NCBI GenBank assembly: GCA_003161435.1
Contig: PMOS01000020.1
Span: 1-64,000 of the forward strand
Source of the DNA: Vulcanimicrobiota bacterium
GTDB taxonomy: Bacteria; Vulcanimicrobiota; Vulcanimicrobiia; Vulcanimicrobiales; Vulcanimicrobiaceae
Length of the DNA: 64,000 nucleotides
Direction: 5' to 3'
Shown here: positions 13,003 through 41,157 of the stretch, one piece after another
How positions within the stretch are numbered: position 1 is the first letter of the stretch
Layout: every line of letters begins with the position of its first letter
Position numbers and translations under genes: made by a program
Notes under the pieces: generated by a model
Database searches by the model: none
Told to the model about the DNA's origin: nothing
What the model saw: the letters and a program-made list of their open reading frames with translations, nothing else

Positions 13003-15334
<2,332 letters not shown>

Positions 15335-38220: not shown

Positions 38221-38608
38221 GATCGAACACCTCAGGATGGAAAGGGTGGAAGAGGTTGGTCGCTCCGCTTTACCACAGGAGCTTGCGACTCCCTCAGTCC
38301 GGCAGAGCCGGGTAACGCGGTCGCAATCGCCATCGTCGTGCCGGAGATCGCGCCGGTTGCGTACCGTGCGGCCTCGTTCTTGACGTTGGTGATCGTCCGT
38401 TTGGCGAGCCGCCGGTGTTGCGTAGTTGTGACGACGGCTTGACGAATGCGCACGCCGCGACGATGAAGTCGATGGAGTCAGCGCCCGCATCGCGCAGACT
38501 GCGACGACGCGGTTCCTCGCGGCGATGCTGCGTTGATTTCCCTGGACGTTGCCTGCGGAAAGTGTCATGATTGCCGTAGAGAAGTCCGCGTCCAGGGGGA
38601 TCACCGTC
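38221..38608. other. 388-bp stretch without a convincing gene
   Basis: Short frames on the minus strand contain fragments that look partly coding (DAGADSIDFIVAACAFVKPS near 38430-38490, and NEAARYATGAISGTTMAIAT near 38310-38370) but in different frames and without starts. This may be the wreck of an old gene. An AGGGGGA SD for the next gene lies at its right end. Confidence 0.35.
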
Positions 38609-39217
38609 ATGAGCGATTCACGTCCTCTCCTCGTCTGGTCCGACGTCATTTGACCGTTTTGCTATCTCGGCTCGGTCTGGGTCGAGCAAGCAGCGCAGCA
38701 GCTTGGCGTGCCGACGCGTTGGCTCCCGTTCGAGCTGCATCCCGATACGCCGTCGGAGGGGGCGCCGAAGCCGTTCAGCGACGAGCAATGGCCCGCGATC
38801 GATCGCCGTCTGCGCACGCTCGCGCAGCAGGTCGGTGTTCCGATCGAACCGCCGCGCCGCAACGCGAACTCGCGTCTCGCGTTGGAAACCGGTGAGCTCG
38901 TGCGCGCTCGCGGCGGCGACGAATCGTCGGCCGCCTTCCATCACGGCGTCTCTCGCGCATTCTTCGTCGAGGGCGCGGACATCGGCGATCTCCAGGTCAT
39001 CGCGAACCACGCAGCGCCCTTCGGCATCAGCGAAGACGACCTCCGCGCGGCGTGGACGTCACACTTGTATGCCGGAGCGATCGACGCCTCGATGCGCGCC
39101 GCGAGAGCCGCCGGCGTGACGGGTGTCCCGGCGTTCGGCTGGCCCGAGTCGCGTGCCGTCAGCGGAATGATGGAACCGCAGCAAATCGTCGCGATCCTGC
39201 AGGGCTCGGCGCGCTGA
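38609..39217 (+). CDS. DsbA/FrnE-like oxidoreductase with in-frame UGA at the first Cys of CxxC (candidate selenoprotein)
   Basis: 202 residues if UGA at 38651-38653 is read through. Start ATG 38609 has AGGGGGA 9 nt upstream. The frame reads LLVWSDVI-UGA-PFCYLGSVWVEQ; relatives have DVxCPFCYLG or DVVCPWCY, so UGA sits exactly where the catalytic N-terminal cysteine belongs. Downstream the frame is intact, with FELHPDTP, SSAAFHHGVSRAFFVEGADI and the cis-Pro loop GVTGVPAF of DsbA-fold FrnE/2-hydroxychromene isomerase-type proteins. A hairpin 16 nt after the UGA resembles a bacterial SECIS element. UxxC variants of thioredoxin-fold proteins are known in selenoprotein families. Alternative: a TGC/TGT to TGA nonsense change. 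No selA, selB, selC or selD gene is in the window. Confidence 0.62.
38670..38687 (+). promoter_or_regulatory. SECIS-like stem-loop downstream of UGA
   Basis: GCTCGG (38670-38675) pairs with TCGAGC (38682-38687): five Watson-Crick pairs plus one G-U, apical loop TCTGGG (or GTCTGGGT if the G-U is open). The loop begins about 21 nt after the UGA, inside the distance known for bacterial SECIS elements, and contains the expected guanines. Short hairpins are common in GC-rich DNA, so this is supporting evidence only. Confidence 0.4.
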
Positions 39218-39229
39218 GAGCGCTCGTGC

Positions 39230-39556
39230 TCAGGCGACGGCCATCGGCGTGAGACGCGTTCCGGCGCGGCCGCCGAGATAGCGGCCTTCCTCGCACACGA
39301 TGCGGCCCGCCTGAAGCACCATGCGAATCGCCAGCGGGGCGCGGACCGGATCGCGGTAGTCGAGCTGGTCGGCGACCTTGTGCTGATCGAAGAGCACCAG
39401 GGCCGCTGCGCAGCCCGCGGCGATTCGGCCGCGACCGGCGATGCCGAACGTGTCGGCGGCGAGCGACGTCATGCGCCGGATCGCTTCGGCGGCGCCTAGC
39501 GCGCCGCGCGTGCGGACGAGCCTCACCGTCGACGACGATCCGACGATGGTCTTCAC
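39230..39556 (-). pseudogene. C-terminal remnant of an N-acyl-D-amino-acid deacylase-type amidohydrolase
   Basis: About 105 residues: TVRLVRTRGALGAAEAIRRM, TSLAADTFGIAGRGRIAAGC, AALVLFD, YRDPVRAPLAIRMVL and GRIVCEEGRYLG match the end of D-aminoacylase-like amidohydrolases. The metal-binding barrel, normally about 400 residues before this, is missing; hipA ends 19 bp before it. The remnant was probably cut off when the hipBA segment arrived. Confidence 0.7.
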
Positions 39557-39574: not shown

Positions 39575-40843
39575 CTATCCGGCGTAAAATGCGTCAGCCA
39601 TGTCGCCTTGCTCTGTTCGCTTGATCCCAACTGAGCCGGCAAGTTCACGCCACTTGCTGACGGCGTCTGCTATGCGGTCGATGATTGACGTCGCTTGGGC
39701 GTCTCTGATACGAAAATACGGCGCGACGGATCGCACCAGATCGAGATCGAGCGCATTGTCGCTTTCGTTGATATTCAGGCAAAGACCGGAGGAGCCCGGA
39801 ACCGGATTCATGTCATAGGCTCCCGAGAGCCGCCAGCCGGCGTTCGGCGTTAGCAGAAATCCATGGTTACGAGGATGGTCGTCCGTATTGGACACCATGA
39901 CGTTGAAGACGATACGCGACCAGAGCTCGATGAGGTCTTCGCGCGGCGAAGCGCCCTGCGATATGATGATTTCAGCAATTTCGAGATAGCTCGCGCCCCT
40001 GGACGCGTCGGCGCCGTCGTAGTGTCCCGTGAGGGTCATCGCCGAAGCAAAATGGACGCGCTCCCCCGCTGCACGACGATCGAAGCGCCGCACCAAGAAC
40101 GTATGCCCGTTGCTCCCGAACGTGCGTGCCTCGCTGACCGGCACGCGTAAGCCGGAACGCTCGGCGAGCTTCGCAACGACGAGTTCCCACGCGCCGACGT
40201 CGTAGTGGTCCTTGGCGCTCGGAAATTTTGCGATCCACAGATTCGCCTCGGGATCGACGACTGTTGCCTTCGGACGCGCTCCGCCAAGGGACGCTCCAGG
40301 AGCGAGGAGCAGGCGAAGCCACTCGTCTGTTGCGGGATCATCGTCATTCGAGTCGGCTTCGAGTGCGCGGCTCGCGGCTTCGAGTTCGCCCAGGCGAACG
40401 AACGGCGGCGCGGCGCTCGCGTCGCGGTCGTCCAGGAACGGGCCGTCCGGCGTACGTTTGTACCGCAGCGCTCCGGATCGAAATGCGTCGTGGACGCCGA
40501 GCAGATAGTCCGATTGCCCGAGGCGCGCGTTTTGGGGGACCAAGCCGGCGCGCTTATCGCGATCGAACCGGCGCCGTATGAGCATTTCTCCCCAGCGATC
40601 CGGACTCGAGTCTTTGAAGACGCCAAACACCGCGCGTCCATCTTTGGGAAATTGCGGCCCCGGAAAAATCCCCAAGTCCGGGTCGAGTGATTGCTTCGGC
40701 AAGATCTTGTCCGTAAGCGCGTCGTCGTCGAATGCAAAATCGAAGAGCTCGCCGGTTCGCCCTGGGCGTACGCGCAGAGTCCCGAGCCGTTTCGGCAGTT
40801 CGTCAGCGTTCCAGTCTTCGTACACCTCGATCACGCCTTCCAT
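39575..40843 (-). CDS. hipA: HipA-family Ser/Thr kinase toxin
   Basis: 422 residues, full length. N-terminal HipA domain with GRAVFGVFKDSSPDRWGEML; SLGGARPK (185-192) is the P-loop-like region with its regulatory Ser; catalytic NTDDHPRNH (319-327) and YDMNP (343-347) bind Mg-ATP. HipA kinases phosphorylate aminoacyl-tRNA synthetases such as GltX and induce dormancy. GAGGAGCG lies 8 nt before ATG 40843, and the start overlaps the end of hipB by 13 nt, the normal TA arrangement. Confidence 0.95.
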   Translation of the reverse strand: MEGVIEVYEDWNADELPKRLGTLRVRPGRTGELFDFAFDDDALTDKILPKQSLDPDLGIFPGPQFPKDGRAVFGVFKDSSPDRWGEMLIRRRFDRDKRAGLVPQNARLGQSDYLLGVHDAFRSGALRYKRTPDGPFLDDRDASAAPPFVRLGELEAASRALEADSNDDDPATDEWLRLLLAPGASLGGARPKATVVDPEANLWIAKFPSAKDHYDVGAWELVVAKLAERSGLRVPVSEARTFGSNGHTFLVRRFDRRAAGERVHFASAMTLTGHYDGADASRGASYLEIAEIIISQGASPREDLIELWSRIVFNVMVSNTDDHPRNHGFLLTPNAGWRLSGAYDMNPVPGSSGLCLNINESDNALDLDLVRSVAPYFRIRDAQATSIIDRIADAVSKWRELAGSVGIKRTEQGDMADAFYAG

Positions 40844-41157
40844 CGAGATGCGCTCCTCGTGCGTGCACTCTGGGGAAGAGTCGCATCCTGGAGATCACGA
40901 CCGAGCGTATCGGCCGCCGCGACAGCATCGAGATCGCCGTCGAGCCCAAGAACGTGCAGAACGGCGGCATACGCGCCGATGGTGACGCCCATGCCGCCGT
41001 TCTCGACGTTCCGCAGCGTCATCACGGACATACCTGCCCGCTCTGCAACGAGTTTTGCAGAGAGCCGGCGCCGCAGCCGGGCCGTGCGGATTCGCTCACC
41101 AAGGCGCGTAAGCCGGCGTTCCAACGGCGGGAGCAGCGGAGCCACACGCTTGGCCAT
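40831..41157 (-). CDS. hipB: HipB-like XRE-family antitoxin
   Basis: 108 residues. HTH of the XRE type: LGERIRTARLRRRLSAKLVA then ERAGMSVMTLRNVENGG; the C-terminal part GAYAAVLHVLGLDGDLDAVA is as in HipB-like antitoxins. It neutralises HipA and represses the operon through the upstream palindromes. ATG 41157 coincides with the predicted transcription start, so the message may be leaderless. Confidence 0.92.
   Translation of the reverse strand: MAKRVAPLLPPLERRLTRLGERIRTARLRRRLSAKLVAERAGMSVMTLRNVENGGMGVTIGAYAAVLHVLGLDGDLDAVAAADTLGRDLQDATLPQSARTRSASRWKA

Follow-up and report, generated by a model that had tools for sequence, protein, structure and literature searches.

A UGA-containing gene of the Eremiobacterota (WPS-2) that very probably encodes a FrnE-type selenoprotein

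DsbA-like oxidoreductases with selenocysteine (Sec, U) in place of the first cysteine of the CxxC motif have been known since 2005, and the UxxC redox proteins are an established class of selenoproteins, as the original prediction for the present locus had said. The available part of the Sargasso Sea report describes nine UxxC DsbA-like sequences, which belong to COG2761 (PMC1088965). In the accessible text of a 2026 review, a 'DsbA-like protein form 1' (PF01323, UxxC) is listed, a DsbA-like selenoprotein is also named for Asgard archaea, and the functions of such selenoproteins are said to be largely uncharacterised (PMC13188914). Another closely related group is formed by the FrnE proteins. 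These are described, in the sections available of the paper concerned, as predicted cytoplasmic thiol oxidoreductases of the DsbA family; for the one from Deinococcus radiodurans, the role proposed is that of a disulfide reductase in which a C-terminal CxxxxC pair helps to reset the active site. The pair is present in many FrnE proteins and absent in some (PMC8945050).

The gene described here lies in a window of 64,000 nucleotides, which is the whole stretch of DNA that was analysed. It very probably encodes a selenoprotein, namely a FrnE-type thiol/disulfide oxidoreductase of the DsbA superfamily with Sec as the attacking residue. When compared by description with the UxxC DsbA-like proteins of the Sargasso Sea report and the review, as far as the text of these sources was available, it has in common with them the Pfam domain, the Sec at the first position of CxxC and a UGA followed by a hairpin. 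The hosts of its clade, unlike those of the available Sargasso Sea and Asgard accounts, are MAGs of the Eremiobacterota (WPS-2). The reading is based on the frame, the TGA and its conservation, the cysteine in distant homologues, selection, a conserved hairpin, the fold prediction and the machinery of the relatives; from these, we infer the insertion of Sec in the source organism and the recognition of the hairpin by SelB.

On the forward strand, the 203-codon frame at 38609-39217 is interrupted once, by a TGA at codon 15, ends with a TGA at 39215-39217 and gives a product of 202 residues when codon 15 is read as Sec. Its translation runs MSDSRPLLVWSDVI up to the internal TGA and continues as PFCYLG... 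beyond it. This TGA (38651-38653) stands at the leading Cys position of the catalytic CxxC, which becomes UPFC with U15 as the proposed Sec; the original prediction of an intact frame with a single in-frame TGA at exactly this cysteine is therefore borne out by the translation. The ribosome-binding site that it had placed ahead of the frame can be recognised by eye as a Shine-Dalgarno-like AGGGGG (38594-38599), 9 nt upstream of the ATG. C18 (38660-38662), the last position of UxxC and the putative resolving residue, is the sole cysteine of the protein. Downstream of the TGA, the protein gives a match to Pfam DSBA (PF01323) at 1.2e-21 and 77.8 bits (cut-off 25.6), and NCBIfam assigned no family to the window protein.

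The conservation of the TGA was observed at two scales. A scan of contigs gave five loci related to the window gene, out of which three are Eremiobacterota/WPS-2 MAGs with 85-87% identity, and all three carry TGA at the equivalent of codon 15. A distant alphaproteobacterial relative has TGT at this position, and the fifth locus (L025) spans only query residues 95-160 and is uninformative on codon 15. In a search of 149 genomes of the phylum, 24 had a match at 1e-10 or better, and these divide into 14 full-length close orthologues, nine distant homologues and one fragment (L072, G028), a C-terminal piece that is cut by a contig end and was kept out of the 14. The 14 include the window gene and the three MAGs of the scan (L021, L022 and L023, that is G010, G003 and G001), each counted once; they range from 54 to 100% identity and cover six genera in two families. 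TGA stands at the codon 15 position in all of them, and cysteine stands there in all nine distant homologues (30-36% identity). No close version of the gene with cysteine was found among the 149 genomes. Some orthologues have UPYC instead of UPFC. A second stop was counted in G004 and G085 and is apparently the terminator, as this is where the frame that follows the TGA comes to its end.

The sequence downstream of the TGA is, as judged by substitution patterns, under purifying selection, with dN/dS values far below 1. Over the 187 codons after the TGA, the window gene gave 0.184 against G001, 0.179 against G003 and 0.190 against G010, and these three gave 0.139-0.155 among themselves; the values of the window gene against G017, G004 and G110 were 0.212, 0.356 and 0.198, of which the one for G004 speaks somewhat against the reading. 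The comparison covers seven of the 14 orthologue sequences. The part upstream of the TGA looks to be coding as well, on the evidence of its few codons: for nine codons and all 91 pairs, the mean pN is 0.24 and the mean pS is 0.41. Further disabling mutations in close relatives, which the original prediction had named as a sign against it, were not seen in any of the 14 full-length orthologues. Thus, both the alignment at codon 15 that it had proposed and the pattern of selection support the selenoprotein interpretation. As regards gene order, a Peptidase_S15 gene on one side of the window gene is common to G001, and no further common neighbour was found in the compared loci, several of which include no more than about 1.5 kb of flanking sequence per side.

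A putative bacterial SECIS is predicted at 38666-38686, with the sequence CUCGGCUC-GGUCU-GGGUCGAG, an 8-bp stem and a 5-nt loop at 38674-38678; from the alignment, an outer extension of the stem to 38659-38693 is also predicted. The hairpin with a G-containing loop was therefore anticipated correctly, but not its start at 16 nt, as the stem starts 12 nt and the loop 20 nt after the TGA. According to the accessible part of the review, the bSECIS limits are a loop of 3-9 nt, a stem of 4-16 bp, a G in the first two loop positions, a loop 16-37 nt after the UGA and an energy of at most -7.5 kcal/mol (PMC13188914). All 14 orthologues have a hairpin within these limits, so the spacing agrees with the model, but chance passes are frequent and the agreement is weak alone. 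When the window stretch was recoded synonymously 3000 times according to the codon usage of these genes, the limits were satisfied by 1226 of the versions, and 520 versions were at least as stable; over the five orthologues recoded out of the 14, the range is 581-1226 of 3000. Similarly, three of eight Cys homologues tested (of the nine, L079 was left out) yield a hairpin within the limits, spaced differently, its loop being 34 nt from the codon. The hairpin alone is at the level of chance in a GC-rich gene and is weak evidence. A hairpin in a single sequence is uninformative; it is conservation that decides the case.

In 13 of the 14 orthologues, the loop GGUCU starts 20 nt after the TGA; in G085, the equivalent bases are AGUUU, and the loop of its best hairpin is GUU, beginning one base further on. 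The hairpin window (codons 4-10 after the TGA) ranks first of 182 seven-codon windows for synonymous conservation. Its excess synonymous identity is 0.44, and no window elsewhere in the gene exceeds 0.31; codons 9 and 10 are dropped from this score, like any column with fewer than 40 same-residue pairs, and it is uncorrected for the kinship of the sequences. Out of the eight stem pairs, five are invariant, one alternates between G-U and G-C, one shows a compensatory change from C-G to U-A in G004 only, and the outermost is unpaired in nine of the 14. The support from covariation is weak, as 27 of 500 shuffles equalled the score. We take GGUCU to be the loop contacted by SelB in fdhF. In this gene of E. 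coli K-12 (NC_000913), GGTCT is found 18 nt after the TGA, close to the 20 nt of the window gene; the two genes are different, and so are their stem sequences.

COG2761, to which the Sargasso Sea sequences belong, is presumably the FrnE group, and it is to FrnE that the window protein is closest. An AlphaFold2 model, made with the TGA read as Cys and an alignment of 13 proteins (nine UGA, four Cys), has a mean pLDDT of 92.8. In this model, residue 15 is found directly ahead of the first helix (16-32). V173-P174 (39125-39130), invariant in the 13-sequence alignment, presumably forms the cis-proline loop of the thioredoxin fold. Foldseek ranks 1-5 are taken by the FrnE of D. radiodurans (PDB 5cnw; TM on query 0.82-0.83) and by SCO1869 of Streptomyces coelicolor (3gl5; 0.85), and the same proteins are the top sequence matches, with a profile E of 2.2e-40 to 5cnw. 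Membership of the DsbA superfamily (PF01323) follows from the profile score over the cut-off and from the DsbA-family structures in the fold search. For the FrnE subfamily, both sequence and fold are closest, and the CP(W/F)C motif is present as UPFC. The fold is common to these proteins, but identity in the fold alignment is 24-27%, Sec replaces the first cysteine of their CP(W/F)C-type active site, and the C-terminal CxxxxC pair is absent from the window protein. It is absent throughout the clade: 13 of the 14 proteins have one cysteine after the Sec, and the remaining one has two that do not form CxxxxC.

The following mechanism can be proposed. The UGA at 38651-38653 would be decoded by tRNA-Sec delivered by SelB, and SelB would be recruited by the hairpin with the GGUCU loop just 3' in the mRNA. 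In the finished enzyme, U15 would attack a disulfide or another oxidised thiol of the substrate, and C18 would resolve the mixed selenenylsulfide. Since the second cysteine pair is absent, an outside thiol, glutathione-like or thioredoxin-like, would be required to reset the enzyme. The redox direction and the substrate are presumed here. No leader was seen by eye in the window protein, and its location is probably cytoplasmic.

The machinery for Sec is common in the phylum. In 60 genomes, the window's own MAG included, SelA is above the cut-off in 51 and SelB in 47. A tRNA-Sec of at least 63 bits is present in 43 of the 60 when counted from the rows; the 47 above the cut-off include four more genomes at 47-51 bits, among them the window's own MAG (G000), where the match is actually a tRNA-Ser. 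ARAGORN identified all six loci tested, out of 20 tRNA loci, as tRNA-SeC with the anticodon TCA. Further, within the genus, SelA is found in nine of the ten remaining members, SelB over the cut-off in eight and tRNA-Sec of at least 73 bits in eight. As for the carriers of the UGA gene, SelA is present in 12 of the 14, the exceptions being G000 and G087 (91% complete); the counts for the other two components cover the nine carriers within the 60-genome set, with tRNA-Sec in eight and SelB over the cut-off in six. As the machinery is so common, and is found also in genomes without the UGA gene, its co-occurrence with the gene is permissive and not specific evidence.

A literature search, mostly of papers outside subscription, found no account of the use of Sec in the Eremiobacterota/WPS-2. 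We lean slightly towards the wider view that the phylum holds a clade of obligately Sec-based FrnE-type oxidoreductases, and that the Sec trait is widespread in this soil phylum without a printed account having been found. The present result gives a little-studied phylum a conserved Sec enzyme, together with signs that Sec machinery is widespread in it. Cys has not taken the place of Sec in any of the 14 orthologues, which makes them a useful set for asking why Sec is retained. A gene caller working with the standard code would halt at the UGA, and such genomes may then seem to be without the protein.

The window's own MAG is 83.42% complete and has 44 contigs. The original prediction looked to Sec machinery in the source genome, and here the outcome is mixed. 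SelA had no match in this MAG. SelB had eight matches with none above the cut-off, and by score they were taken for other GTPases. Nor was any convincing tRNA-Sec obtained from the 150 of 562 candidates that were scored. What does speak for the machinery is the selA of nine of the other genus members and a Sec-type selD in the MAG itself: two selD genes are above the cut-off, one with TGA in SHGAG-U-ACK and the other with Cys there. We take this TGA to be at the classical Sec position of SelD. The best Rfam match to tRNA-Sec (47.7 bits) was rejected, since ARAGORN gives it as tRNA-Ser(TGA). The U-form selD (L009 480-2526, contig C28) lies downstream of a protein with two rhodanese stretches, and the Cys form is on a separate contig (L010).

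The region can be compared with that of G001, which belongs to the same genus and has tRNA-Sec at C5:770167-770256 and selB-selA at about C5:797654-800066. Contig C19 of the window's MAG (111012 bp) is collinear, with gaps, to this contig up to query position 15148 (about 770147), and the synteny stops about 20 nt short of the tRNA-Sec site. Beyond it come unrelated sequence and a Mutator-type transposase (together L119 5266-6013), and C19 ends about 750 bp on, inside the transposase gene. Nothing collinear with 795-815 kb or 815-835 kb of G001 was found in the MAG. Isolated segments of the G001 sequence that lies past tRNA-Sec occur within the MAG's contigs C35 (two) and C44 (one). No tRNA-Sec was found in a permissive Rfam scan of the end of C19, or with Rfam and ARAGORN on C35:74-85 kb, C44:80-92 kb and the two selD regions.

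It may therefore be asked whether the clade uses Sec while this lineage has recently lost the machinery, for example by a transposase-linked rearrangement at the tRNA-Sec locus, with the window gene and the U-form selD left as untranslated relics. The failure to find selA, SelB over the cut-off or a convincing tRNA-Sec, the break in synteny beside the tRNA-Sec site with a transposase after it, and the unmatched 795-835 kb of G001 would all suit such a loss. The scattered pieces in C35 and C44 hint at a rearrangement there, and as they come without tRNA-Sec, they give this alternative more weight and the preferred reading less. At 0.18-0.19, the window gene also has a slightly higher dN/dS than its three nearest relatives have among themselves. 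Nevertheless, a loss of this kind is unlikely. The MAG is incomplete, and a contig end within a mobile element, as in C19, is expected of an assembly gap, which is the simplest reading of this end; both TGA genes are otherwise intact, the dN/dS of the window gene is far below 1, and nearly all of the other genus members have selA. A missing EF-Tu was considered as proof that the MAG is incomplete and was dropped, as a split match on C11 may be EF-Tu.

The other two alternatives to a selenoprotein fare much worse. It is very improbable that the UGA is read as some other residue without selenium, by near-cognate read-through or a suppressor tRNA: the failure to find Sec machinery in the window's own MAG would fit, but the distant homologues have Cys, the very residue that Sec replaces, the gene has no other in-frame TGA, and the relatives possess tRNA-Sec with the anticodon TCA along with SelA and SelB. 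For the remaining alternative, a Cys gene that became a pseudogene or was misread through a base-call error, the only point in favour is that TGA is one change from TGC or TGT, and for the clade, both versions are rejected as hardly credible, because the identical TGA recurs in 14 separate genomes, which makes a base-call error untenable, with no other disruptions seen and with purifying selection downstream.

Some neighbours of the selenoprotein gene within the window may also be mentioned. A peptide methionine sulfoxide reductase gene (PF01625; 33790-34323, forward strand), which has no internal TGA, lies about 4 kb upstream. At 39230-39556 on the reverse strand, a short C-terminal amidohydrolase fragment (PF07969) appears to be the remnant of a gene. 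Downstream of the selenoprotein gene and on the opposite strand, 39575-41157 encodes a HipA-like protein (PF07804, HipA_C) and an overlapping small HTH protein, and the two resemble a toxin-antitoxin pair of the HipAB type.
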